Assembly (NCBI RefSeq): GCF_000720455.1
Contig: NZ_JOAK01000018.1
Coordinates: forward strand, 62,001-126,000
DNA length: 64,000 bases
Direction: 5' to 3'
Source of the DNA: Streptomyces virginiae
GTDB lineage: Bacteria > Actinomycetota > Actinomycetes > Streptomycetales > Streptomycetaceae
Part shown: positions 18,047 through 61,356 of the stretch, in pieces
Layout of the letters: each line of letters opens with the position of its first letter
Numbering within the stretch: the first letter of the stretch is position 1
Made by a program: the position numbers and the translations under genes
Notes under the pieces: model-generated
The model's database searches: none
What the model was told of the DNA's origin: nothing
What the model saw: the letters and a program-made list of their open reading frames with translations, nothing else

Positions 18047-19459
18047 TCAGCCCGCCGTCAGCTTCTCCCACTCCTCCCGGTCCGGTCCCACCTCGTTCGG
18101 TTCGTACTCCGGCCGCGCCGCCAGCCAGCGCGCCACCCGGGCCCGGATCTCCGGGTCCGCGTACGCCCGCTCCGGAGGCTCGGCCAGGTGCCTGACCCGC
18201 GCCCGGGCCCGCATCACGTCGGGGTCCTCCAGCGCGCAGTCGAACAGCGCGGCCACTTCGCGCGCCGTCCCGGTACGCCCCGCCCGCGTCGCGAAGCGCT
18301 CGCCGATGGCCGCGTCGGCGACCACCTGGAAGTCGAACCAAGGCTTCAGGGTCCGCACCGCCCACTCGTGGTGCGCCACGGCGAACCGCTCGGACCCGGG
18401 CTCCATGTGCGCCGTACGGGCCACCCTGCGCGCCGCCCACAGGGTGAGCGAGGTGCCCTGCCCCAGGGTCGGGTTGGTGTGCGTGATCGAGTCGCCGACC
18501 GGCACCAGCCCGGTCACCACCGGTCCCCGCTCGTCCACGAGCGCGCTCCAGCGGTTGTCCAGGCTCGCCGTGGCCAGTACGCCCGACAGGGGCTCGGCGC
18601 CGAGCGCCAGCCAGGCCTCACCGGGCGGGAAGGAACGTGCGGCCCGTTCGAAGACCGCGGGGTCGCGCAGCGCCGACCGCGTGGTGTCCGCGGTGTGCAC
18701 GAAGAGCGTCACGGCGAAGACCCGGTTGTCGGCGGGGAAGACGGCGCACCCGGCGAAAGCGCCGCCGGTCACCGCCCACGGCCGTCGCGGCCCCTCGTCC
18801 ATGCCCGCGGGCAGCCGGTACCAGCGGCAGAAGTACGCGAGCCCCGTGCGGTGCCGTTCCACGACGGGCGGCCGGCACCCCGCCGCGCCGAGCCTGCGCT
18901 CGATGCCGCCGCGGCGGCCGCCCGCGTCCACGACGAGGTCCCCCTCGTAGCTGCCCGCCTCGGTGGTCACTCCCGTCACCCGGATACCGGCAGCGGCGCC
19001 GGGGTCGTCCCCGGACTGCGGCGCGGTGGTGAGTCCCGAGACCGGCTCCCCGTGGCGGAGGACCGCTGCGGGCTCCGCGCGCAGTGCCGTGGCCAGCGCG
19101 CTCTCCAGCACGATGCGCCGCGCCTGCAGCATGACGAGGTCCTCGTCGCCGGGCAGCTCGGGCGGCCGTACCTCGAACCAGTCCAGCTCGTGCCGCTCGC
19201 GGGCGCCGAGCCGGAGCATCTCCCCGTAGACGTCGGGCAGCTCGTCCCGCAGGACGTTGCGGGCGGCTCCCAGCAGCGCGTGCGGCTGGACGGCCTGCGG
19301 TACGGTCGGCCGCCGCCAGCCGAAGAAGTCGCGGTCGAGCGCGCTGCCGGGGGCGCGCGTGTCGCGCTCGAAGAGCTCCGCCGTGTGTCCGCGCCGCGCC
19401 GCGAGCAGGGCGGTGGCGAGGCCGCCGATCCCTCCGCCGATGACCAGCACATGTGCCAT
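18047..19459 (-). CDS. FAD-dependent monooxygenase-like oxidoreductase
   Basis: The 470-residue protein starts MAHVLVIGGGIGGLATALLAARRGH, a dinucleotide-binding GxGxxG motif, and has the second FAD motif as GLVPVGDSITHTNPTLGQG. This places it among PHBH-like group A flavoprotein monooxygenases and geranylgeranyl-reductase relatives. The usual DG-motif region is seen as DLVVDAGGRRG. No membrane segment is evident. The start ATG 19457-19459 follows GGGGGGACG; open frame upstream is ignored. It is downstream of, and in the same direction as, a thioredoxin reductase-like gene, with 112 bases between. The substrate is unknown. Confidence 0.8.
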   Translation of the reverse strand: MAHVLVIGGGIGGLATALLAARRGHTAELFERDTRAPGSALDRDFFGWRRPTVPQAVQPHALLGAARNVLRDELPDVYGEMLRLGARERHELDWFEVRPPELPGDEDLVMLQARRIVLESALATALRAEPAAVLRHGEPVSGLTTAPQSGDDPGAAAGIRVTGVTTEAGSYEGDLVVDAGGRRGGIERRLGAAGCRPPVVERHRTGLAYFCRWYRLPAGMDEGPRRPWAVTGGAFAGCAVFPADNRVFAVTLFVHTADTTRSALRDPAVFERAARSFPPGEAWLALGAEPLSGVLATASLDNRWSALVDERGPVVTGLVPVGDSITHTNPTLGQGTSLTLWAARRVARTAHMEPGSERFAVAHHEWAVRTLKPWFDFQVVADAAIGERFATRAGRTGTAREVAALFDCALEDPDVMRARARVRHLAEPPERAYADPEIRARVARWLAARPEYEPNEVGPDREEWEKLTAG

Positions 19460-19571: not shown

Positions 19572-20582
19572 TCAGCCGTGGAGCGCACCGGCGGCCGCGC
19601 CCGTGCGGTGGGCCGCCAGCGCCCGCCTGGACTCAGCCTCGATCAGGTCGGCGTTGATGGCGGCGGCAGCCTGCGCGCCCTGGGCGGCCGCCCCCGCGAC
19701 CTTCTCCAGCGGCGCGGTCACGTTGCCCGCCAGCCAGACCCCGCGGAGCGTGGTGGCGCCGGTGGCCGGGTCGGATTCGACGCTACGGCCGATCACGTGC
19801 CCGTCCCGCGTCATGTCGATGGTCGGCAGGCCCAGGCTGGTCAGGACCCCCGAACGGGCCGTGAACCGCGGGGCCACCACCAGCGCCCGGCACTCCACCC
19901 CCGCCCCGCCGGCCAGGGTGACCCCGGTCAGCCGGTCGTCCTCGACGGCCAGGCCGGTCACCTCGCCCTCGACGACCCGGATCCCGAGGGCCGCGAGCAG
20001 CTCCCGCTCGTCCTCCCCCAGCGGCCAGGTGTGCGCCAGCAGCGTGGTCCGGTCGCTCCAGTGCCGCCACATCTGCGCCTGGTGCACGGCGAGCGGCCCG
20101 TCGGCCAGCACCGCGACCGGCTGGTCCCGGACCTCCCAGCCGTGGCAGTACGGGCAGTGCAGCACGTCCCGCCCCCAGCGGGCCCCGAGCCCCGGCACCG
20201 CCGGCAGCTCGTCCACCAGGCCGGTGGCGACCAGCAGCCGCCCCGCCCGCACGGTCGAGCCGTCCCCGCAGCGGACCAGGAAGCCCCCGTCGGGCAGCCG
20301 GTCCGCGGCGACGGCCGTGCCGGGCCGGATCCGGCCTCCGTAGCCCTCCACCTCCGCACGCCCCGTGGCGAGCAGCGTGGCCGGACTCCCGCCGTCCAGG
20401 CCCAGGTAGCCGTGCATGTGCGCGGCCGGGGCGTTGCGCGGGCTGCCGGAGTCGATCACCAGTACCGAACGGCGGGCCCGGACCAGGGTGAGCGCCCCGG
20501 CCAGTCCGGCCGCGCCGCCACCGACGACGACCACGTCGAACGATTCGCCCTTTGCATCCCTTGCGTCCCTTGCGTTGTCCAT
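19572..20582 (-). CDS. Thioredoxin reductase-like NAD(P)/FAD oxidoreductase
   Basis: The 336-residue protein has an N-terminal FAD motif VVVVGGGAAGLAGALTLVRA, a CPYCHG segment near residue 145 at the position of the thioredoxin reductase redox pair, and a C-terminal GVWLAGNVTAP FAD-binding segment. The NADPH-binding motif is degenerate (VAVLADGPLAVHQ), as in the family often annotated as thioredoxin reductase-like. It probably oxidises or reduces a small dithiol or thiol product. It is divergent from an XRE-cupin regulator, with an inverted repeat between the starts, which suggests direct control. Confidence 0.82.
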   Translation of the reverse strand: MDNARDARDAKGESFDVVVVGGGAAGLAGALTLVRARRSVLVIDSGSPRNAPAAHMHGYLGLDGGSPATLLATGRAEVEGYGGRIRPGTAVAADRLPDGGFLVRCGDGSTVRAGRLLVATGLVDELPAVPGLGARWGRDVLHCPYCHGWEVRDQPVAVLADGPLAVHQAQMWRHWSDRTTLLAHTWPLGEDERELLAALGIRVVEGEVTGLAVEDDRLTGVTLAGGAGVECRALVVAPRFTARSGVLTSLGLPTIDMTRDGHVIGRSVESDPATGATTLRGVWLAGNVTAPLEKVAGAAAQGAQAAAAINADLIEAESRRALAAHRTGAAAGALHG

Positions 20583-20646: not shown

Positions 20647-21264
20647 ATGGCCCCCGAGAAGCAGGACGAGGAACTCACCGACGTGCTCACCGCCGTCGGC
20701 CCGCGGCTGCGGGCCCTGCGCCGGCAGCGCGGCACCACGCTGGCCCAGCTCAGCGAAACCACCGGGATCTCCCTCTCCACGCTCTCCCGGCTGGAGTCCG
20801 GACAGCGCAAACCGACGCTGGAGCTGCTGCTGCCGCTGGCCAAGGCGCACCGGGTCGCACTGGACGAGCTGGTCGGCGCGCCGGAGACGGGTGACCCCCG
20901 GATCCGCCCGCGCCCCTTCGTCCGGCACGGCCACACCTACGTACCGCTGACCCGCAACTTCGGCGGGGTGCACGCCTTCAAGCAGATCCTCCCGCCCGTC
21001 GAGGGCGCCCCGCCCGTACCCGAACTGAAGGTCCACGAAGGGTACGAGTGGCTGTACGTGCTGTCCGGGCGCGTCCGGCTGCTGCTCGGGGAACACGACC
21101 TGGTGCTCGAACCCGGAGAGGCCGCCGAGTTCGACACGCGTACGCCGCACGCCTTCTGCAACGCCGGTCCGCAGCCTGCGGAGTTCCTCAGCCTCTTCGG
21201 CCCCCAGGGCGAGCGGATCCACGTCCGCGCCCGTCCCGCCACTCCTCCGGAAGGACGTCCATGA
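20647..21264 (+). CDS. XRE-cupin transcriptional regulator
   Basis: A 205-residue protein with an N-terminal helix-turn-helix (LRALRRQRGTTLAQLSETTG, then STLSRLESGQRKPTLELLL) and a C-terminal cupin barrel with ELKVHEGYEWLYVLSGRVRLLLGEHDLVLEPGEAAEFD. Such proteins repress neighbouring catabolic or redox genes until the cupin binds a small ligand. It is divergent from the thioredoxin reductase-like gene and overlaps the downstream NUDIX gene by four bases. I use ATG 20647 after a GGAG sequence; an in-frame ATG at 20602 would place the -35-like TTGACA inside the gene. Confidence 0.85.
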   Translation: MAPEKQDEELTDVLTAVGPRLRALRRQRGTTLAQLSETTGISLSTLSRLESGQRKPTLELLLPLAKAHRVALDELVGAPETGDPRIRPRPFVRHGHTYVPLTRNFGGVHAFKQILPPVEGAPPVPELKVHEGYEWLYVLSGRVRLLLGEHDLVLEPGEAAEFDTRTPHAFCNAGPQPAEFLSLFGPQGERIHVRARPATPPEGRP

Positions 21265-28011: not shown

Positions 28012-28025
28012 GCCACAGCTGTGGC
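28012..28025. promoter_or_regulatory. 14-bp palindrome upstream of cassette A
   Basis: GCCACAGCTGTGGC is a perfect palindrome, 43 bases after the -35 of the divergent MmyB-type gene and 30 bases before a TAGATT -10-like box (28055-28060). A single GTGGC half-site recurs at 27979-27983. Either regulator in this locus could bind here. Confidence 0.55.
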
Positions 28026-28113: not shown

Positions 28114-28782
28114 GTGACAGACGGCTTCCCGGCTCCCGTCGCGGTGGCCGACGCACCCCTGGCCGCGACCATCACCCGCGTCGCCGAACTCGCGGGCAAG
28201 ATGGGCCGCGAGCTGAACCAGGTCTTCGACCTGCGACGCCTCTCGGAGGCTTCGGGCGTGCCCACGGATGTGGTGAAGACCCTGCTCGAAGGCAGGCCGG
28301 CCGGCGAACCCGACCTCCAGGCCCGCTTCCTGCAGCGCCTCGACCTGCTCCGGCGCACGCGCGTCAAGGCGAACGGCCGCCGCTACACCCAGCAGGAGAT
28401 CGCCGACGGCGCCGGCATGTCGAGGCAGCAGGCGGGAGCCCTGATCAACGGCGACCGCCGCCCCACCATGGAGCATTGCGACGCGATCCAGCGCTTCTTC
28501 GGGGTGCACGCCGGGTTCCTCACGGCCCACGACGCCGACGCCCTCACCGACGCGCTCCAGCGGACCGAACAACAGCTGCTCCAGGACTATGCGGGGCGGG
28601 CGCGGGAAACCGTACCGGCCTCGGCCGCATCGGCGGGCGATCCGCTGGCAAGACTCCTGCAGAACCACGGTGTACGGGGCATCGCCTGGCGCGCTGCCCA
28701 ACTGCCCAGCGACAAGCACCGGGACAAGGTGACCGAATGGCTGGACATGCTCCTCGAAAGCGTAAAACCGAACGAATCCTGA
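28114..28782 (+). CDS. Cassette A regulator: single-unit HTH protein
   Basis: A 222-residue putative DNA-binding protein, read from GTG 28114 after AGGAGAAC. The centre (residues about 70-150) has FLQRLDLLRRTRVKANGRRYTQQEIADGAGMSRQQAGALINGDRRPT, an XRE-like helix-turn-helix, then IQRFFGVHAGFLTAHDADAL. An N-terminal segment with LRRLSEASGVPTDVVKTLLEG looks like a second, degenerate HTH half. The C-terminus (HGVRGIAWRAAQLPSDKHRD) matches the same region of cassette B's regulator. It is 64 bases before the HExxH gene. A role as the cassette's own regulator is inferred. Confidence 0.8.
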   Translation: MTDGFPAPVAVADAPLAATITRVAELAGKMGRELNQVFDLRRLSEASGVPTDVVKTLLEGRPAGEPDLQARFLQRLDLLRRTRVKANGRRYTQQEIADGAGMSRQQAGALINGDRRPTMEHCDAIQRFFGVHAGFLTAHDADALTDALQRTEQQLLQDYAGRARETVPASAASAGDPLARLLQNHGVRGIAWRAAQLPSDKHRDKVTEWLDMLLESVKPNES

Positions 28783-32868: not shown

Positions 32869-34584
32869 TCAGCCCGCCTCGGTGCCACCGAAACGCTCGC
32901 GGTAGGACTCCAGGTCCTCCTCGGTGACCCGGGCGAAGAGCACCGGCGGGACGGTGAACGGGGTTCCGGCCGGGACCGCGTCCAGGGCCTTGGCCTGCTC
33001 CGGGGTCACCCACGTCGCCGTGTCGTCGGCGAGCGCGAACGCCGAGCGCATGGCGCGCGCCGAGGCCGGGATGAACGGCTCGGAGACCACCGAGTAGAGG
33101 TGGATGAGGTTCATCGCGGTGCGCAGGGTGAGCGCGGCGGCGTCGAGGTCGGTCTTGACCTCCAGCCACGGGGCCTTCTCGTCCAGGTAGGCGTTGCCGG
33201 CCGACCACAGGGCGCGCAGCGCGGCCGCGGCCTTGCGGTACTGGAGGGTCTCCATGTGGCCCTCGTACTCGGCCAGCAGCTCGGCGATCTGCTCGCCGAG
33301 CTTCGCCTCGGCCTCGCCCGCGGGGCTGCCGGCCGGGACCTCGTCGCCGAACTTCTTGCGGGAGAAGGTCAGCACGCGGTTGACGAAGTTGCCCAGGGTG
33401 CCGCCGAGGTCCTTGTTGACCGTGGCGGCGAAGTGCTCCCACGTGAAGGAGGAGTCGTCGGACTCGGGGGCGTTGGCGATGAGGAAGTAGCGCCAGAAGT
33501 CGGCCGGGAGGATCTCCAGCGCCTGGTCGGTGAAGACGCCGCGCTTCTGCGAGGTGGAGAACTTGCCGCCGTAGTACGTCAGCCAGTTGAAGGCCTTGAC
33601 GTAGTCGACCTTCTTCCACGGCTCGCGGGTGCCCAGCTCGGTGGCGGGGAACATCACCGTGTGGAACGGGACGTTGTCCTTGGCCATGAACTGGGTGTAG
33701 CGGACGTCCTCGGCCTCGTACCACCAGGACTTGTAGTCGCGGTTCGCCGGGTCGGCGTCGGCCCACTCCTTGGTCGATGCGATGTACTCGATCGGGGCGT
33801 CGAACCAGACGTAGAAGACCTTGCCCTCGGCCGCCAGGTCGGGCCAGGTGTCGGCCGGGACCGGGACGCCCCAGTCGAGGTCACGGGTGATGGCGCGGTC
33901 GTGGAGGCCCTCGGTCAGCCACTTGCGGGCGATCGAGGAGGCCAGCTGCGGCCACTCCTCCTCGTGCTCGGCGACCCAGGCCTCGACCTCGTGCTGGAGC
34001 TTGGACTGCAGGAGGAAGAGGTGCTTGGTCTCGCGGACTTCCAGCTCGGTGGAGCCGGAGATGGCCGAGCGGGGCTCGATCAGGTCCGTGGGGTCCAGGA
34101 CGCGGGTGCAGTTCTCGCACTGGTCGCCGCGGGCCTTGTCGTAGCCGCAGTGCGGGCAGGTGCCCTCGACGTAGCGGTCCGGCAGGAAGCGGCCGTCGGC
34201 GGGCGAGTAGACCTGCCGGATCGCGCGCTCCTCGATGAAGCCGTTCTCCTGGAGCCGGCGCGCGAAGTGCTGGGTGATCTCGGCGTTCTGCGGCGAGGAG
34301 CTGCGGCCGAAGTAGTCGAAGGACAGCTCGAAGCCGTCGTAGACCGCCTTCTGGGCGTCGTGGGCCTGCGCGCAGAACTCGGCGACCGGGACGCCGTTCT
34401 CCTTGGCGGCGAGCTCGGCGGGGGTGCCGTGCTCGTCGGTGGCGCAGATGTAGAGGACGTCGTGGCCGCGCTGGCGGAGGTACCTGGAGTACACATCCGC
34501 CGGAAGCATCGACCCGACCATGTTGCCCAGGTGCTTGATCCCGTTGATGTACGGAAGCGCGCTGGTGATCAGGTGTCGAGCCAT
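32869..34584 (-). CDS. metG: Methionyl-tRNA synthetase
   Basis: The 571-residue protein charges tRNA-Met and fMet. Class I signatures are visible: INGIKHLGN for the HIGH motif near residue 18 and KFSTSQKRG for KMSKS. A zinc-finger insertion with [17 protein letters not shown] follows the family. It has no C-terminal EMAP-like tRNA-binding domain. The start is ATG 34582-34584 ([12 protein letters not shown]), nine bases after GGAG; an upstream ATG at 34597-34599 is less well placed. The gene stands alone. A 12-base palindrome lies 34 bases upstream. Confidence 0.96.
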
Positions 34585-53667: not shown

Positions 53668-55461
53668 ATGGCCGGCACCGGGAGTTCCAGGCGTACGTTC
53701 ATCGCGGGCACGGGCGCCGCGGCCCTGTCGGCCCAGGCCGCGGCGGCCCTGGCGGCTCCGACGGCGGCCGCCGCGCCCGCCGGGGCACCGGCCGCGCCGA
53801 ACGGCCGGCGCGTCGCCGTACTGGGAGGCGGGGTGGCGGGGATGACCGCGGCGCACGAACTCGCCGAGCGCGGCTACGCCGTCACCGTGTACGAGCGCCG
53901 GGCGCTCGGCGGCAAGGCCCGCAGCATGGACGTACCGGGCAGCGCCCGCGGCGGCCGCAGGCCGCTTCCCGCGGAACACGGCTTCCGCTTCATCCCCGGC
54001 ATCTACCACAACCTGCCCGACACCATGCGGCGCATCCCCTTCGCCGGCAACGCGAACGGCGTGTGGGACAACCTGGTGGCCCCGCCCGAGATGATGTTCG
54101 CCCGCACCGGGGGCCGCGAGGACCTGCGCGGCCCCATCCCCTGGCCCGGCCACTCCCCCGCCCCGCTCACGCCCGACGAGGTACGGCGCGCCCTGTCGGG
54201 CATCCTGCAGACCCTGGTCAGGCTGCCTCCGCACGAGACGGCGTACTTCGTCGACCGCGTGCTGGTCTTCCTCACCAGCTGCGACGAGCGGCGGGCCGAG
54301 GTCTGGGAGCACGTCCCGTGGTGGGAGTTCACCCGGGCCGCGCGGATGTCGAACGAGTACCAGCGCATCCTGGCCGTCGGCGTCACCCGCAACATCGTGG
54401 CGACCAAGGCGGAGGAGGCCTCCACCCGCACGGTCGGCACCCTCGGCGAGGCCTTCGTCTTCAACCTCCTGGGCCGCGGGGCGGACGGCCCGCCGGACCG
54501 GATCCTCAACCTGCCGACCAACGAGGCGTGGATCGACCCGTGGGAGGCCCATCTGCGCTCCCTCGGGGTGGAGTTCAGGATCGGCTGGACCGTACGGGAG
54601 GTGCAGTACGCCGGCGGCCGGGTGAGCGGGGTCGCGGTCGAGGGCCCCGACGGCGCCCGGCAGACCGTGACCGCCGACCACTACGTCAGCGCGCTGCCCG
54701 TCGAGCACGCCCGGCGCACCTGGAGCCCGGGGCTGCGCGCCGCCGACCCGATGCTGGGGCGCTGCGACAGGCTCCGGACCGACTGGATGACCGGCATCCA
54801 GTTCTATCTGACCGAACGGGCCCCGCTGGTGCACGGCCATCTCAACTGCATCGATTCGCCGTGGTCGTTGACGGCGATCCAGCAGGCCGAGCACTGGCCG
54901 GCGCGGGACTTCCCCGCCGACTACGGGGACGGGGCGGCGGTCGACTGCCTGTCGGTGGACATCTCCGAGTGGGACAAGCCGGGGATCCTGTACGGCAGGA
55001 CGGCCAAGCAGTGCACCCGCGACGAGGTGGCGCGCGAGGTGTGGGCCCAGCTGAAGGCCTCCCTCAACGACACCGGCAGGACGCTGCTGTCCGACACGAA
55101 GCTGCACTCGTGGTTCCTGGACCCCGGCGTGGACGGGCTCGGCACCCCGAACCCCACCAACCAGGACGAGCTGCTGATCCACCCGGTCGGCACCCTCGCC
55201 AACCGGCCGAGCGCGGGCACGCGCGTCGCGAACTTCTTCCTCAGCGGGGACTACGTCGCCGTCGACATCGACCTCGCGACGATGGAGGGCGCAAACGCCT
55301 CCGCCCGCGCGGCCGTCAACAGCCTCCTGGACCGGGACGGTTCCACGGCCCCGCGGTGCACCGTACGGCCCCTGTACCGGGCGCCGGAGATGGAGTCCGC
55401 CAAGCGGCACGACCTGTGGCGCCACCGCCTCGGCCTGCGCAACGTCTTCGATGTCGGCTGA
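53668..55461 (+). CDS. Tat-exported FAD-dependent amine oxidase/desaturase-like protein
   Basis: The 597-residue protein begins with a twin-arginine signal (SSRRTFIAGTGAAALS), so it is expected to be exported folded with its flavin. The FAD-binding motif RVAVLGGGVAGMTAAHELAERGYAVTVYERR is at about residue 55, and the rest follows the flavin amine oxidase/phytoene desaturase/HpnE superfamily. A role in carotenoid, hopanoid or amine oxidation cannot be separated by sequence alone. ATG 53668 follows GAAGGGGC. It is divergent from the pterin dehydratase gene. Confidence 0.82.
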   Translation: MAGTGSSRRTFIAGTGAAALSAQAAAALAAPTAAAAPAGAPAAPNGRRVAVLGGGVAGMTAAHELAERGYAVTVYERRALGGKARSMDVPGSARGGRRPLPAEHGFRFIPGIYHNLPDTMRRIPFAGNANGVWDNLVAPPEMMFARTGGREDLRGPIPWPGHSPAPLTPDEVRRALSGILQTLVRLPPHETAYFVDRVLVFLTSCDERRAEVWEHVPWWEFTRAARMSNEYQRILAVGVTRNIVATKAEEASTRTVGTLGEAFVFNLLGRGADGPPDRILNLPTNEAWIDPWEAHLRSLGVEFRIGWTVREVQYAGGRVSGVAVEGPDGARQTVTADHYVSALPVEHARRTWSPGLRAADPMLGRCDRLRTDWMTGIQFYLTERAPLVHGHLNCIDSPWSLTAIQQAEHWPARDFPADYGDGAAVDCLSVDISEWDKPGILYGRTAKQCTRDEVAREVWAQLKASLNDTGRTLLSDTKLHSWFLDPGVDGLGTPNPTNQDELLIHPVGTLANRPSAGTRVANFFLSGDYVAVDIDLATMEGANASARAAVNSLLDRDGSTAPRCTVRPLYRAPEMESAKRHDLWRHRLGLRNVFDVG

Positions 55462-55507: not shown

Positions 55508-56302
55508 ATGACCACCTCGACGCCCACGGTCGGCGCCCTGCTCCGCACATGGCGGGAGCGGCGCGGCATCAGCCAGCTGGAGCTGGCGGGCCGCGCCGAC
55601 TCCTCGTCCCGGCACATCAGCTTCATCGAGACGGGGCGGTCCCGGCCGAGCGAGGAGATGGTGCTGAGGCTCGCCGACCGCCTCGACGTCCCGGTGCGGG
55701 AGCGCAACGCCCTGCTGCTGGCGGCCGGTTACGCCCCGCACTACGCGCAGACCGCGCTGGACGACCCGTCGATGGAGACGCTGCGCGAGGGCATCGAGCG
55801 GCTGCTGACCGGGTACGAGCCCTATCCCGCCCTGGTCGTGGACGCCACCTACGACGTCGTCGCCGCCAACCGGGGCATCCTGATGCTGCTGGACGGCCTG
55901 CCGGAGCACCTGCTGACGCCGCCGCTGAACGCGATGCGGATCACCCTGCACCCCGAGGGCCTGGCGCCGAGGATCCGCAACCTCCGCGAGTGGCGCGGGC
56001 ACCTGCTCGCCCAGATGGAGCGGCAGATCGCGCTGGCCCGCTCCGAGCCGCTGCGCGCGCTGTACGAGGAGGTGTCCTCCTATCCGGTGGCCGAACGCCC
56101 CGGCGACGGCGCACCGGAGGAGCCCGTCCCCTACATCGCGCTGCCGCTGGTCATCGAGCACGACGGCCACCTGCTGTCCTTCGTGTCGTCCATCGCGACC
56201 TTCAACACCCCGATGGACGTGACCGTCGCCGAGCTGGCCATCGAGACGATGCTCCCGGCCGACCCGGCGACGGTGAAGTACCTGCGCTCACTCGGCGACT
56301 GA
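55508..56302 (+). CDS. XRE regulator with MmyB-like ligand-binding domain
   Basis: The 264-residue protein has an XRE helix-turn-helix (LRTWRERRGISQLELAGRADSSSRHISFIETGRSRPS) followed by the MmyB-like ligand-binding region (PYPALVVDATYDVVAANRGILML, then LHPEGLAPRIRNLREWRGHLL). ATG 55508 is used; the frame is open upstream but without conserved sequence. Its stop overlaps the convergent membrane-protein gene by 15 bases. It is the nearest MmyB-type regulator to cassette B, as the gene at 26905-27897 is to cassette A. Confidence 0.85.
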   Translation: MTTSTPTVGALLRTWRERRGISQLELAGRADSSSRHISFIETGRSRPSEEMVLRLADRLDVPVRERNALLLAAGYAPHYAQTALDDPSMETLREGIERLLTGYEPYPALVVDATYDVVAANRGILMLLDGLPEHLLTPPLNAMRITLHPEGLAPRIRNLREWRGHLLAQMERQIALARSEPLRALYEEVSSYPVAERPGDGAPEEPVPYIALPLVIEHDGHLLSFVSSIATFNTPMDVTVAELAIETMLPADPATVKYLRSLGD

Positions 56303-56704: not shown

Positions 56705-56962
56705 GGGGAATCAGCCTCCGTCGAGGTCGAACGGCCAGGTGGGAGCCGGGCCCCGGAACCGAGTGCGCGGCCCCGGAACCCGACGCCCCCACTGTGCCGG
56801 GCACCCTCGCCGGGGGTCGATTACCTCTGAGGTCATGCCAACGGTTTTTGAGGTGGGCGGCAGGAAACATTGGGGTTCCCGTGGTTCTGCCGGGGGTGGG
56901 GGGCTAGGCTTCACGCAGCCCGATCCACTCGAACGCCTTGTCGACATATGGAGAATCAGCCG

Positions 56963-57988
56963 GTGCGAGCCGCCGCCCGACCCGACCTCGCCGCGATCTG
57001 GCGGCGCGTCGGGGCACTCGCGGAGCGGTGCGGCCAGGACCCGGCCGAGGTGCTGGCCGTGGGGCGGCTGAGCCACCTGTCCGGGGTCGAACCCCGGCGC
57101 ATCCCACCGGTGGTGGCGGGCACGGCTGCCGAAGTGCCGCTGGAACGGCGGGTGCACCAGCGGTTCCGGCTGCTGCGCGCGACCCGCCGCGACAAGCACG
57201 GGCGGGAATGGCCGCTCGCCGCCATCGCCCACGACTTCGACGCCCCCGGTGCCTCCCTCGGCCCCCTCAACGCGGGCACCGGGCTGCTGCGGCTGGGCCA
57301 CGCGGCGGGCGTGCAGCGGTTCTTCGGCGTCTACGCCGGTTTCCTGCTGGCCGACTGCAAGAGCGCGGTGGAACGCGCCCTCGCCCTGTCCGTGACCACC
57401 GTCTCCGACGGCCGGGACGACCTGGAGCACCTCTCGTACCTGACCGGCATCACGCCCCAGGCGGTCCGGCAGACGCTGGACGGCAGGCCGCCCCGGCTCC
57501 CCCTGAAGGAGCAGGTGCACCAGCGGTTCGAGCACCTGCGGCGCACCAGGCCGCGGGAGGACGGCCAGGCCCATTCGCTCACGGCCATCGCCAAGTCCTT
57601 CGACGCGTCGGGGCAGTCGCTGACCCGCCTTGCCCAGGGCGAGGGCATGCCCAACCTCGCCGCGGCCGCCGGGATCCAGCGCTTCTACGGCGTCGACGGC
57701 GGCTTCCTGCTCGCCGACGACACCGAGGCGCTCGCCACGGCACTCGCGCTGATCGAGGGCGAACTGGAGTGCGTCGAACGGGAGCGGGAGAATCCGATGC
57801 TGGCCGTGCTGCGTGCGCATGACGTACGGAGCATCGTCACGCGGGCCGGCCGGCTGTCGCCCCAGGGGTGGAAGTCACTGGCCGACCACTTGGACGACCT
57901 CCTCGCGCGCGAGGGGCAGCTCGGACTTCCGGGCACGAAGGGCGGGGCGCCGACCGATGGCGCCGCCGCCGAGGGAGAAACACCATGA
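56963..57988 (+). CDS. Cassette B regulator: HTH protein with duplicated unit
   Basis: A 341-residue protein that contains the core of the cassette A regulator twice. Unit 1 (about residues 30-140) has VHQRFRLLRATRR, LAAIAHDFDAPGASLG and VQRFFGVYAGFLLAD; unit 2 (about 155-265) has VHQRFEHLRRTRP, LTAIAKSFDASGQSLT and IQRFYGVDGGFLLAD. Each unit is preceded by an LSHLSGVEP or LSYLTGITP helix and a basic stretch. The C-terminus shares the HDVRSIVTRAGRLS region with cassette A. I use GTG 56963, nine bases after GGAGA; ATG 56948 has no such site. It overlaps the next gene by four bases. A TAGGCT -10-like box lies at 56905-56910. Confidence 0.78.
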   Translation: MRAAARPDLAAIWRRVGALAERCGQDPAEVLAVGRLSHLSGVEPRRIPPVVAGTAAEVPLERRVHQRFRLLRATRRDKHGREWPLAAIAHDFDAPGASLGPLNAGTGLLRLGHAAGVQRFFGVYAGFLLADCKSAVERALALSVTTVSDGRDDLEHLSYLTGITPQAVRQTLDGRPPRLPLKEQVHQRFEHLRRTRPREDGQAHSLTAIAKSFDASGQSLTRLAQGEGMPNLAAAAGIQRFYGVDGGFLLADDTEALATALALIEGELECVERERENPMLAVLRAHDVRSIVTRAGRLSPQGWKSLADHLDDLLAREGQLGLPGTKGGAPTDGAAAEGETP

Positions 57989-58620
57989 GGACCACACGGG
58001 CCATGCGCAAGCTGGGCTCCGAACTGCTGGAGGGCGCACGCCTGACGGCGCCGGCCGATGTCGGGGAGATCATCGGGGCGCTGTGCGCCGCCTACGCCCA
58101 ACGGCGCGGCACAGAGCGGAAGGTGGACTTCCACTTCACCTCGTTCCCGCCCGACACCGCGAGCGGCCTGTGGCTGGAGCTGGACGACGTCGACCTGATC
58201 GTCGTCGAGCAGCACACCCGGCCCGAGCACCAGCTCGTCATCGCCTGCCACGAGCTGTGGCACCTGGACGAGGGGACCTGCGACAGCGTCGGTCCGGGCA
58301 TGCTCGTGGCCGCCCGGCTGGCGGGACGCCACGGCAGCCTCGCCGAACTGCTGGCCCCCGGCTCCGGGCTGGACGCGGTGGTCCGGCAGGCCGCCGCCCG
58401 CGCCGACCAGGGGGATCCGGCGGAAATCCGGGCCGAGACCTTCGGCCTGCACCTCGGCAACATCCTGCGTTCCCACCTGCCGTCGCCCCGGGAGCAGCAG
58501 TTCCCCGAGGCGATCGAGCGCATCAAGTCCTCACTCGGCTGGGGAAGCCCCGTGCCACGCCGTGACCAGCACCAGCCAGTCGCAGCATCCCTCACGCCGA
58601 TGCCCTCAGCACGGCCCTGA
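57985..58620 (+). CDS. Cassette B ImmA/IrrE-like HExxH protein
   Basis: The 211-residue protein is the paralogue of the gene at 28847. It has HELWH (about residues 90-94), FPPDTASGLWLEL and the AETFGL segment that can supply the third zinc ligand. The ATG at 57985 overlaps the regulator's stop (ATGA) and follows GAGGGAG. In contrast to cassette A, no TTA codon is present. Cleavage of the regulator encoded upstream is the natural hypothesis from the ImmA precedent; peptidase activity is unproven. Confidence 0.78.
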   Translation: MRTTRAMRKLGSELLEGARLTAPADVGEIIGALCAAYAQRRGTERKVDFHFTSFPPDTASGLWLELDDVDLIVVEQHTRPEHQLVIACHELWHLDEGTCDSVGPGMLVAARLAGRHGSLAELLAPGSGLDAVVRQAAARADQGDPAEIRAETFGLHLGNILRSHLPSPREQQFPEAIERIKSSLGWGSPVPRRDQHQPVAASLTPMPSARP

Positions 58621-58636
58621 CAGAGAGCCCGCCACG

Positions 58637-60151
58637 ATGAACCAGTCCTCCCCGCCCCGCCACGCCGTCGTCATAGGCGGCAGTCTGGCCGGCCTCCTCG
58701 CGGCCGCTGTCCTCGCCGAGCACGCCACGGTCACCGTCATCGACGCCGACCCGCTGCCCGAGGGGCCGGCCCCTCGCCGTGGACTCCCGCAGGCCCGGCA
58801 CACCCATCTCCTGTGGTCGGGCGGCGCCCGGGCCATCGAGCGGATCCTGCCCGGCATCACCGACGACTGGACGAAGGCCGGCGCGATCCGCCGCAGCCTG
58901 CCCACCGACCTGGTGACCAAGACCGCTCAGGGCTGGATCCCGCGCTGCGGCGAGAAGCAGTTCAACATCTCCTGCAGCCGCGACCTCCTCGACTCGGTGG
59001 TCCGCGCCCGGGTCACCGGCCTCGCCGGGGTCACCACCCTCCAGCAGAGCCGGGTCCGGGGCCTGGAGGGTACGGCGGCCCGGGTCACCGGCGTCCGCGT
59101 CGACACCCCCGAGGAGCAGGACCGGCTGGTGACGGCCGATCTGGTGGTCGACGCCAGCGGCCGCGGATCGCGCGCCCGGACGTGGCTGCAGGCGCTCGGC
59201 GTGAGCGGCATCCGGCAGGCCGAGGTCGACTCCGGTCTCGTCTACGCGACCCGGATCTTCGAGGCCCCGGCCGGCGCGCACGAGATGGGCTTCCCCATCG
59301 TCAACGTGCAGTCCGACCCCCGGGTGCCCGTGCCCGGACAGACCGCCACGATCGTGCCCATCGAGAACGGCCAGTGGCAGGCCACCCTGTCGGGCACCCG
59401 CGGCGGCCAGCCGGCGGGCGACCCCGACGCGTTCATCCCGTTCGCCAAGTCCGTGCGCGACCCGATCGTCGGCGAGCTCCTGGAGGGCCGCAAGCCCCTG
59501 ACGGACGTCGCCGTCACCCAGGGCACGGCCAACCGCCGGATCTACTTCGAGAAGGCAGAGCTGCCCGACGGCTTCTTCGCCGTCGGCGACTCCGTCGCCA
59601 CCTTCAACCCGCTGTACGGGCAGGGCATGACCGTCGCCGCCCAGGGCCTCCTGGCCGTCCGCACCCTGCTGCGGGCGAAGGGGCTGGCCCACCCGGGGAT
59701 CGGCCGCGAGGCGCAGCGCGTCATCGCCCCCCAGGTCGCCACCGCCTGGGAGCTCGCCACGTCGCAGGACATCCTCTATCCGGGCGCCACCGGGATGAAG
59801 CCGCGCGCGGGCACCGGCCTGCTCAACGGCTACGTCAACCGTCTGATGACGGGTGCCACCACCGACGAGGCACTCACCGCCGCCCTGTTCAACGTCCTCA
59901 CCATGAGCATCGAGCCCACCCACTGGCTGCGCCCTTCGGTGGTCTGGCACGTGGCGCGCGCCTCCGACCGCGGCGCGCTGAAGGCGCCTCCCCTCACCGC
60001 CGCGGAGCGGGCCGTCGCCGGGCTGGACCCGGCGCCCGGCACGAGAACCGGAGCCGGGAGCACCGGCACCGGGGCCGGGACCGGAGCCGCCCCCACCGGT
60101 GCGGCGAGCGATCCGGTCGGCCCTGCCGACCCCGTCGGACAGGCCCGATGA
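58637..60151 (+). CDS. Cassette B FAD-dependent oxidoreductase
   Basis: The 504-residue protein is present in cassette B only. It has an N-terminal FAD motif HAVVIGGSLAGLLAAAVLAEH, the Rossmann DLVVDASGRGSRAR segment and a second FAD motif FAVGDSVATFNPLYGQGMTVAAQG, as in PHBH-like monooxygenases and LasC/Lsd18-type polyether epoxidases. A Gly-Thr-Ala-rich tail (about residues 465-504) is unusual and probably unstructured. ATG 58637 has a GAGAG ribosome-binding sequence and lies 16 bases after the HExxH gene; its stop overlaps the membrane-protein start. Confidence 0.82.
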   Translation: MNQSSPPRHAVVIGGSLAGLLAAAVLAEHATVTVIDADPLPEGPAPRRGLPQARHTHLLWSGGARAIERILPGITDDWTKAGAIRRSLPTDLVTKTAQGWIPRCGEKQFNISCSRDLLDSVVRARVTGLAGVTTLQQSRVRGLEGTAARVTGVRVDTPEEQDRLVTADLVVDASGRGSRARTWLQALGVSGIRQAEVDSGLVYATRIFEAPAGAHEMGFPIVNVQSDPRVPVPGQTATIVPIENGQWQATLSGTRGGQPAGDPDAFIPFAKSVRDPIVGELLEGRKPLTDVAVTQGTANRRIYFEKAELPDGFFAVGDSVATFNPLYGQGMTVAAQGLLAVRTLLRAKGLAHPGIGREAQRVIAPQVATAWELATSQDILYPGATGMKPRAGTGLLNGYVNRLMTGATTDEALTAALFNVLTMSIEPTHWLRPSVVWHVARASDRGALKAPPLTAAERAVAGLDPAPGTRTGAGSTGTGAGTGAAPTGAASDPVGPADPVGQAR

Positions 60152-61356
60152 GCCGCGAGATCACCCTGCTCCTGCCCGGCTCCCTGATGGTCCTGGCACT
60201 GCTGATCAAAGCTCCGAAGCTGCGCCGGAACTGGGACCAGCCGCTGAACCGGACCGCGTGCGCACTGCTCGTCGTCGGCGCCCCCATCACCTTCCTGGCG
60301 TCGCCGCCGACGATCGCCGCGGTCAACCGCCGTACCGGCGTGGTCAACTTCTCCGCACCGCTGGTGTTCGGCCTGCTCACGGTTTTCTCCGGACTGTGCG
60401 TCGTCCTGGTCCTGCAGTGGCGCGGCGGCCCGCCCGCTGCCGTGCGCCGGGCCACCCGGCTGACCGCGGCCGTGTTCGCCGCGGCGACCGCCGCGATCGT
60501 CGCCCTGTTCGTGATCGGCGACGCGCCGGTGGAACGCCTCCGGGACCTGGACACGTACTACGCCACGACGCCGTGGATCCGCGAGATGATCGTCTGCTTC
60601 CTGGTGGCGCACACCCTGGGCACCTCGGCGCTGACCTGGCTGTGCGCCAAGTGGTTCGCACGCGTCGACCGCTCGCTGCGCCCGCTGCGCACCGGTCTGG
60701 CCCTGATCGTCCTCGCGGGACTGCTGGACCTGGCCTACCTGGCCGCCAAGTGGGCCTCGGTGGTCGCCCGCTGGGCCGGCCGCGACTGGGTCGTCCTGTC
60801 CACGGACGTGGCACCGCCCCTGGCCTCGGCCTCCGCCCTGCTGCTGGGCGCCGGGTTCGTCGTGCCGCTGATCGGCGGGTCGGCGACGTGGACCGCCTAC
60901 GGCGACTACCGGCGGCTGCGCCCGCTGTGGAAGGCGCTGCGCGGGTTCGCCGCGGCCCAGGGACGGACCGTACCGCTCGCCTGGTGGTCCCCGGTGGGGA
61001 TCCGGCTCATCCACCGCGAGTCCGTCATCGACGACGGCATCCTGGCGCTGGCCGGCTGGTTCGACCCACGGGTGCACGCCACCGCCTACGAGGCGGCCCG
61101 CAGCCGCGGCATGGACGAGGCGCGGGCCGCCGCGGTCGCGGACGCCGCCGTCGTGGCCGCCGCCTGCCACGTCAAGGGCGCCGCCGCGCGCGGATCCGGC
61201 CCGGGGCCGGCCCCGGTCCCGGAGCCGCACCGCCTGGGCCGCCGCCCACTGACCGCGCTGGCCCACGAGTTCCGCACGTCCGCCGTCGTCGCCGCGGCCC
61301 GCGACGCGGCCGCCGCCGGCACGCCCGGCCCGTGCCTGGAGCCCCTGGTCGCCTGA
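60148..61356 (+). CDS. Cassette B MAB_1171c/DUF6545-type membrane protein
   Basis: The 402-residue protein is the paralogue of the gene at 29401. The membrane half contains about seven helices and shares PPTIAAVNR, VNFSAPLV and VERLRDLDTYYATTP-type sequence. The soluble C-terminal half carries WWSPVGIRLIHRESVIDDGI and an Ala-rich helix (ADAAVVAAACHV). ATG 60148 overlaps the flavoenzyme stop (ATGA). Two strong terminator hairpins follow, so it ends the operon. Confidence 0.78.
   Translation: MSREITLLLPGSLMVLALLIKAPKLRRNWDQPLNRTACALLVVGAPITFLASPPTIAAVNRRTGVVNFSAPLVFGLLTVFSGLCVVLVLQWRGGPPAAVRRATRLTAAVFAAATAAIVALFVIGDAPVERLRDLDTYYATTPWIREMIVCFLVAHTLGTSALTWLCAKWFARVDRSLRPLRTGLALIVLAGLLDLAYLAAKWASVVARWAGRDWVVLSTDVAPPLASASALLLGAGFVVPLIGGSATWTAYGDYRRLRPLWKALRGFAAAQGRTVPLAWWSPVGIRLIHRESVIDDGILALAGWFDPRVHATAYEAARSRGMDEARAAAVADAAVVAAACHVKGAAARGSGPGPAPVPEPHRLGRRPLTALAHEFRTSAVVAAARDAAAAGTPGPCLEPLVA

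Follow-up and report, generated by a model that had tools for sequence, protein, structure and literature searches.

A streptomycete gene cassette with a polyene-epoxidase homologue and a predicted receptor-like membrane protein

Four genes, encoding an XRE-like regulator, a HExxH metallopeptidase-like protein, a flavin adenine dinucleotide (FAD) monooxygenase and a membrane protein of the MAB_1171c type, are arranged as a cassette in a stretch of 64,000 nucleotides from Streptomyces virginiae (assembly GCF_000720455.1, contig NZ_JOAK01000018.1, positions 62,001 to 126,000), hereafter the window. We refer to these genes as cassette B, and to a related set without the flavoenzyme as cassette A. 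The cassette system is real and conserved: the gene set, the family of the enzyme and its co-inheritance with one subfamily of membrane proteins emerged from sequence comparisons, and folds were predicted for the peptidase and for the seven-transmembrane (7TM) membrane protein. Our leading but tentative reading, in which we place slightly less than even confidence, is that the receptor and the peptidase, with a regulator encoded in cis or in trans, govern an epoxidase, and that the ligand is linked to the chemistry of this enzyme.

Organization of cassette B

The cassette spans positions 56963–61356 on the forward strand:

56963..57988, + strand: regulator, 341 aa; two XRE-like units in tandem
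57985..58620, + strand: HExxH metallopeptidase-like protein, 211 aa; predicted ImmA/IrrE/CapP fold
58637..60151, + strand: FAD monooxygenase, Lsd18/MonCI polyene-epoxidase family, 504 aa
60148..61356, + strand: MAB_1171c/DUF6545 membrane protein, 402 aa; predicted 7TM bundle and helical domain

An earlier note on this DNA had described the same gene order, together with four-base overlaps at three of four positions. The order stands, while the overlaps are fewer: ATGA overlaps were seen at two of the three junctions (regulator/HExxH and flavoenzyme/membrane gene), and the HExxH and flavoenzyme genes are separated by a gap of 16 bp. The regulator starts with GTG preceded by GGAG, and an in-frame ATG at 56948 is an alternative start. 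Four DUF6545 matches were found in the whole genome, which is 8.3 Mb in size.

Co-inheritance of the flavoenzyme and a membrane protein subfamily

Of 121 genomes from the genus, 101 contained a homologue of the flavoenzyme (E ≤ 1e-30), and the recurrence of the arrangement in further Streptomyces genomes shows it to be more than chance. Among 30 loci fetched with the flavoenzyme search, nine, including the window, were cassette-B orthologues; within the fetched stretch L011 lacked the regulator, and at L012 no more than 89 aa of the membrane protein were seen. The membrane gene was located beside the enzyme in 17 of the other 21 loci and was absent from L016, L018, L019 and L020. We also selected 40 divergent flavoenzyme loci (L055–L094) with longer flanks, picked by hand down the ranked list with second copies per genome mostly passed over. 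The enzyme was in a run with MAB_1171c and HExxH genes in 32 of these, 18 of which also contained a regulator, so that the regulator is the less constant component; the membrane gene was missing from L058, L059, L060, L086 and L087 and from the polyketide synthase (PKS) neighbours L089, L090 and L092. It was also missing within 1.5 kb at L016 (56% identity), which is outside the 40. Genes were called with an in-house script, which missed the HExxH and flavoenzyme genes at L070, both revealed by a six-frame search.

The pairing of enzyme and membrane gene recurs in both gene orders and at many sites in the genus, with 42–57% identity to the window enzyme. In a tree of 98 membrane proteins, labelled as enzyme-operon or no-enzyme from the script gene calls, all 65 rows from flavoenzyme operons fell into a single clade of 75, starred in the tree. 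No enzyme partner was identified for the remaining ten rows of this clade; in one of them, L130, the next gene encodes a 198-aa protein with no Pfam match. The recurring co-occurrence and the partner-specific clade rule out that the flavoenzyme is an unrelated recent insertion, and its proposed functional tie to the other genes is supported by the neighbourhood comparison and by its retention in all 20 named cassette-B orthologues (19 from Streptomyces and one from an "Actinobacteria bacterium").

Outside the clade, the membrane gene is followed by genes for a P450 (L107, L112, L132), an aldo-keto reductase (L095), an amidase (L108), an amidohydrolase (L109, L110, L113) or a short-chain dehydrogenase/reductase (L133), and several of these junctions overlap by four bases; the enzymes of L105 and L111 were assigned by resemblance alone. 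A family-wide search detected DUF6545 in 116 of 150 genomes. From 113 matches we selected 40 regions by hand (L095–L134), a non-random sample that partly overlaps the flavoenzyme set, and a HExxH gene was found in the run of the membrane gene in 37, the misses being L104, L118 (contig end) and L131 (fragment). Given the variety of enzyme partners, the HExxH and 7TM proteins resemble a chassis on which the enzyme can be exchanged.

Two variants of the layout were seen among these regions. At L104, L105, L106, L110, L111 and L113 a regulator-type gene (232–298 aa) lies on the opposite strand and not at the head of the operon, and at L096 and L097, one of which is in the window's own genome, the order is membrane gene, regulator, HExxH, with a membrane protein of another DUF6545 subfamily.

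The membrane protein

The membrane protein of cassette B passed the curated cut-offs of NF042915 (102.8 bits against 100) and PF20182 (50.1 bits against 24.4). In an AlphaFold2 model, residues 2–243 form seven transmembrane (TM) helices in a bundle resembling that of G-protein-coupled receptors (GPCRs), and residues 246–389 form a helical domain that is probably cytosolic. Among the 50 matches listed by Foldseek, the similarity to GPCR folds reached a TM-score of at most 0.41 by query and 0.55 by target. Conservation in the putative receptor is highest not in the TM core but in a loop that is predicted to be on the outer side, a pattern suggestive of ligand recognition: the mean identity in this loop was 73% among flavoenzyme-linked membrane proteins, compared with 18% between these and outsiders.

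Since the predicted fold combines a GPCR-like 7TM bundle with a soluble domain, "receptor" fits this protein better than "transporter". The MAB_1171c/DUF6545 family is named putative transporter, whereas the prediction presented here is of a 7TM protein that resembles a receptor and has subfamilies linked to enzymes. The protein differs from animal GPCRs in its DUF6545 domain, in that no G protein is known and in the lack of a profile match to GPCR sequences (none at E ≤ 1 among the chain sequences of the Protein Data Bank, PDB). The modelled likeness to animal GPCRs is likely to be convergent or very remote.

The flavoenzyme

Lsd18/LasC and MonCI install epoxides in the polyene chains of lasalocid and monensin. 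By sequence, the cassette B enzyme is a homologue of these epoxidases: the best PDB match was Lsd18/LasC (8up4, E = 7.4e-104, query residues 7–457), and MonCI entries were matched at E of about 1e-95. Residue equivalences were mapped by hand on the alignment from the PDB search. The flavin-stacking histidine H71 of Lsd18 is kept as H57, and its W74 and Y218 as W60 and Y203, whereas the pocket residues V252, V342 and H239 and the adenine-stacking R51 are changed to T, L, Q and A, respectively.

According to PMC10560226, two flavin-epoxidase motifs, RKGxPQxRHxHxLWSxGA and AFNPxxGHGMSxxA, are restricted to polyether enzymes. The window enzyme deviates from both, with 12 of the 13 fixed letters and an allowed residue at three of the five variable positions of the first (RRGLPQARHTHLLWSGGA), and seven of the ten fixed letters of the second (TFNPLYGQGMTVAA). 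The cassette relative L057 carries the first motif completely, and the second is complete in the homologue L087, which has neither a PKS motif nor a cassette nearby. The statement therefore seems too narrow.

Polyether epoxidases are located in PKS clusters, whereas the cassette enzyme is accompanied by a regulator, a peptidase and a 7TM protein, with no PKS motif. A ketosynthase motif was found in the fetched stretches of L035–L094 only at L089, L090 and L092, none of which is a cassette, and these PKS-side homologues form a clade of their own in an unrooted tree with the cassette enzymes. According to PMC12144862, Lsd18 converts farnesyl acetate into a bisepoxide, which makes it plausible that a stand-alone relative such as the cassette enzyme acts on a free isoprenoid or polyene.

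The window also encodes a second, distant FAD monooxygenase (18047–19459, − strand), 30% identical to the cassette enzyme over 243 aa, which adjoins genes that, on inspection of the sequence only, resemble those for a pyridine-nucleotide oxidoreductase (19572–20534, − strand) and an XRE-type protein (20647–21264, + strand).

The HExxH protein and the regulator

Switches consisting of an XRE regulator and a peptidase are known, and CapP is part of a defence regulator pair; to our knowledge, the inputs of such switches are mostly open. The HExxH motif of cassette B, HELWH, is encoded at 58249–58263 and is followed by a conserved motif, E147-x2-A150-x2-F153. H89, E90, H93 and E147 were invariant columns in an alignment of 38 sequences, from which E147 would be a zinc ligand alongside the HExxH motif. 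No Pfam family matched the B protein at E ≤ 1 or the A protein at E ≤ 0.05. Because profile searches of PDB sequences yielded nothing usable for the HExxH protein or the membrane protein, a fold comparison was needed, and the predicted structure of the HExxH protein was assigned to the ImmA/IrrE/CapP fold with CapP as the best structural match. The likeness to PprI/IrrE-DdrO, ImmA-ImmR and CapP-CapH thus comprises the peptidase fold, the HExxH motif with a downstream glutamate and an adjacent XRE-type regulator gene, which the window shares with 18 of the 32 relatives. The cassette peptidase departs from those systems in having no Pfam match and in its association with an enzyme and a 7TM membrane protein. 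The signal for PprI is reported to be single-stranded DNA (PMC10904395).

The B regulator consists of two tandem units that stem from an internal duplication and are 48% identical to each other over 107 aa (E = 1e-28). The called cassette-B regulators, from 19 named loci and the window, were 330–366 aa in 19 of 20 cases and a 66-aa remnant in L053, and seven A-type regulators were 210–222 aa. The A regulator matched HTH_3 (PF01381) above the cut-off (E = 3.3e-9), and through homology to it the B regulator is XRE-like in sequence. Comparison of both with solved structures gave nothing informative, the best match of the A regulator being a protein named DBP48 at E = 0.07.

Palindromes were located upstream of both regulators:

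56823..56833, no strand: ACCTCTGAGGT palindrome, candidate operator, within a GTCGATTACCTCnGAGGTCA-like footprint upstream of the B regulator
28012..28025, no strand: GCCACAGCTGTGGC palindrome upstream of the A regulator, kept in seven of seven aligned A-type cassettes

The GTCGATTACCTCnGAGGTCA-like footprint was found in most aligned cassette-B orthologues and was absent as aligned from L037, L039, L044 and L053. The 11-mer ACCTCTGAGGT occurs once in the window; as a candidate operator it could also serve a divergent gene of 138 aa. The extended B palindrome has one exact place in the genome and one with a single mismatch, the latter at positions 59635–59649 of contig C5 in genome G000 (locus L253). 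The GCCACAGCTGTGGC palindrome varies at one middle base across the seven A-type cassettes, and a regulon search with it across the genome recovered only the cassette A site and no distant target.

Cassette A and A-type loci

Cassette A comprises three genes on the forward strand:

28114..28782, + strand: regulator, XRE, HTH_3; single unit, 222 aa
28847..29404, + strand: HExxH protein, 185 aa
29401..30570, + strand: MAB_1171c-type membrane protein, 389 aa; outer-loop signature ERLRDFDTFYANTP kept

Protein alignment upheld the proposal that the two cassettes are paralogous: the HExxH proteins were 42% identical over 186 aa and the membrane proteins 45% over 318 aa, and the two halves of the B regulator each matched the A regulator (35% over 176 aa and 37% over 139 aa). 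These low identities (35–45%) indicate that the duplication is old. The cassette A membrane protein nests among those of enzyme-bearing cassettes and retains the loop signature ERLRDFDTFYANTP although no flavoenzyme gene comes after it. The description of the flavoenzyme as "added" in cassette B is not supported, since this enzyme is the usual partner of B's membrane-protein subfamily. What is peculiar to cassette B is the order, with the flavoenzyme before the membrane gene; elsewhere the enzyme is usually last, at times after two membrane genes.

A-type HExxH genes (≥66% identity) were found in 49 of the 121 genomes. The enzyme followed in cis at three of 30 scanned A-type loci, and position lists placed it in cis at no fewer than three of the 49, among the matches listed. 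A close flavoenzyme, read by hand from the search table at E ≤ 1e-90, was present in all but one of the 49 genomes that have an A-type locus (48) and in 19 of the 72 that have none (Fisher test, 7e-17). All 14 regulator-less flavoenzyme cassettes were from genomes with an A-type locus, compared with nine of 15 regulator-bearing cassettes not of the A type (Fisher test, 0.017). These sequence patterns suggest that A-type pairs and flavoenzyme cassettes are one distributed system, in which A would lend the regulator or receive the molecule.

Proposed mechanism and its limits

In the scheme that we infer for topology, ligand, peptidase activation, regulator cleavage, action in trans and substrate, the GPCR-like 7TM protein would sense a small, probably lipid-like molecule at the outer side, and its cytosolic DUF6545 domain would relay the state of the receptor to the ImmA/IrrE-type metallopeptidase. 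In the manner of PprI and DdrO, the peptidase would act on an XRE regulator, adjacent or elsewhere (the A-type pair), and thereby set expression. The output would be the flavin epoxidase of the Lsd18/MonCI family, oxidising an unsaturated, isoprenoid- or polyene-like substrate that may be taken from general metabolism since no PKS adjoins, and the ligand would most likely be the substrate or the product of the epoxidase.

The observations in this and the following paragraph weigh against such a scheme. A regulator of this family was lacking, beyond a weak score, in six-frame searches of the fetched stretches of 14 of the 32 flavoenzyme cassettes (L061 had one weak match), for which reason our confidence was lowered to its present level. 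Nine of these 14 belong to a single clade of ten; the Fisher value of 0.017 is therefore overstated and serves only as a lead. When only ancestry-independent pairs were counted, on a species tree for which the marker was found in 70 of the 121 genomes and the other 51 were left out, an average of 5.1 of seven pairs changed in the same direction for A-type locus and flavoenzyme and 0.0 in the opposite direction, a borderline result (median p = 0.06). Ten of the 30 A-type loci had a regulator and a HExxH gene with no membrane gene within 1.5 kb, and none of the other three genes was found within 1.5 kb of 12 distant flavoenzymes from outside the genus. For the proteins themselves, no Pfam family, including any HTH model, matched the B regulator at E ≤ 1, no GPCR match in Foldseek reached E = 0.001 and TM-scores were modest. 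The counts of lysine plus arginine (outer loops 2, 2 and 1; inner loops 0, 0 and 1; C-terminal domain 19; more charges at helix ends) matched an N-out/C-in topology roughly, not sharply.

Gene loss sets a further limit. All 20 named orthologues contained the enzyme, covered to residue 464 or beyond, whereas the membrane gene was present in 13 and lost from L035, L036, L041, L042, L051, L052 and L053 with the enzyme intact. The HExxH gene was full-length in 14 and shortened in one (L035), and a regulator was not found at E = 1e-20 in L045 and L053. Among the seven without a membrane gene, five lacked the HExxH gene at E = 1e-20, one had the shortened copy and only L042 a full one, while no orthologue had a membrane gene without a HExxH gene; the two thus look like one unit that can be shed together. 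Scars of the vanished genes were detectable in several reduced orthologues, and the losses map to about four places on the enzyme tree, with varying support. We estimated pairwise ratios of non-synonymous to synonymous substitutions (dN/dS) by the Nei-Gojobori method. These were 0.11–0.25 for the enzyme (12 pairs, reduced loci included), 0.11–0.35 for the regulator (11 pairs; 0.54 against the decayed L053 remnant), 0.13–0.62 for the HExxH protein (seven pairs) and 0.17–0.46 for the membrane protein (five pairs). Between the window and L036 the ratios were 0.109 for the enzyme and 0.107 for the regulator even though the receptor had been lost, and in the window clade the HExxH (0.34–0.62) and membrane genes (0.43) look relaxed. 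Kept under constraint, the enzyme, mostly with the regulator, appears useful without the other two proteins. In the reduced clade, going by these sequences, the enzyme can do without this receptor. A repressor that only the peptidase can release is hard to reconcile with the losses, which in that clade speak against both an exporter and a simple relay through a repressor alone.

Alternative explanations

The earlier note had suggested that a small molecule is made or oxidised and then exported or sensed. The making or oxidising of a small molecule and its sensing are retained in our leading reading, where the link drawn between flavoenzyme and sensing holds; export is disfavoured. A model in which the flavoenzyme makes a metabolite that the MAB_1171c protein exports, both controlled by the regulator and the HExxH protein, would agree with the putative-transporter name of NCBIfam NF042915 and with the Mycobacterium abscessus MAB_1171c mutant, which formed about 50% less biofilm, interpreted as transport by its authors (PMC8707978). 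The predicted GPCR-like fold with seven TM helices and one soluble domain, the intact enzyme in the seven orthologues without the membrane gene and the loop signature kept in cassette A with no enzyme in cis make it improbable. We give somewhat more weight to an envelope or stress response with no diffusible signal, in which the 7TM protein would read the state of the membrane and the epoxidase would act, within that cell, on a membrane lipid or the tail of a quinone. The enzyme stands alone, the fetched stretches of the cassette loci among L035–L094 being free of PKS motifs, an isoprenoid is accepted by Lsd18 (PMC12144862) and the enzyme was worth keeping once receptor and peptidase were lost; yet conservation peaks in the predicted outer loop, as for ligand recognition, and we regard this explanation as unlikely.

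It is highly improbable that the regulator and the HExxH protein are antitoxin and toxin, or a phage-defence pair, with the other two genes as passengers. NCBI names most of the named close HExxH homologues "toxin-antitoxin system, toxin component", which is annotation only, and CapP is the closest structure; against this, flavoenzyme and receptor subfamily are co-inherited, the 14 regulator-less cassettes hold a HExxH gene with no regulator in cis, and several orthologues drop the HExxH gene and keep the regulator, the reverse of an addictive pair. Least credible of all is that the genes are loose neighbours united by chance or hitchhiking in one lineage. Cassette B is a single clade whose parts have been lost separately, but the pairing in both gene orders, at many sites and at 42–57% identity, with a partner-specific clade, makes this unlikely at the genus level.

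A more specific possibility, unlikely as a whole, is that the cassettes constitute a bacterial hormone circuit, in which the epoxidase would make an oxidised lipid or isoprenoid signal, the outer loop of the 7TM protein would read it and proteolysis of the XRE regulator would relay it, with A-type cassettes that lack the enzyme as further receivers, or as suppliers of the regulator, for a signal made in trans. If so, the sister cassettes with a P450, reductase or amidase would be circuits for other signals. The Streptomyces conservons and gamma-butyrolactone circuits are likewise modular sets of signalling genes that have oxidative enzymes in their vicinity, but their protein families are not known to be related to those of the cassette.

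The leading reading, of a receptor and peptidase that control the epoxidase, would give a function to a family annotated as transporter and to a peptidase annotated as toxin, predict a class of oxidised signals and provide a handle on silent metabolism. An XRE-peptidase switch is here joined by a receptor-like membrane protein and an enzyme of known chemical type, in a genus rich in antibiotics, and the gene set hints at an undescribed way to sense or make an oxidised small molecule. Beyond the earlier note, the analysis adds the enzyme family, the receptor-like and peptidase folds, the partner-specific loop and the exchangeable enzymes, as well as a regulator that may act in trans and a loss pattern that limits how obligatory the coupling is. 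An open-access literature search retrieved nothing on DUF6545, and the MAB_1171c paper, in the part consulted (PMC8707978), does not treat this operon. No publication on the gene combination was found by title or start of abstract, in a search that left most subscription papers and preprints outside.

Neighbouring genes

Just upstream of cassette B are genes for an amine-oxidase-type flavoprotein (53668–55461, + strand) and a MmyB-like regulator (55508–56302, + strand) with the ligand-binding domain PF17765, and many cassette-B orthologues have, at the same place, genes similar to these two in size and in family score. The regulator-less cassettes L072, L073, L074, L075, L078, L079, L080, L083, L088 and L094 are often near genes that, from their first residues only, resemble those for sugar-handling enzymes or a sugar-binding transport protein. 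A methionyl-tRNA synthetase type encoded elsewhere in the window (32869–34584, − strand) had a match at E ≤ 1e-200 in no more than 70 of the 121 genus genomes, which suggests two forms.

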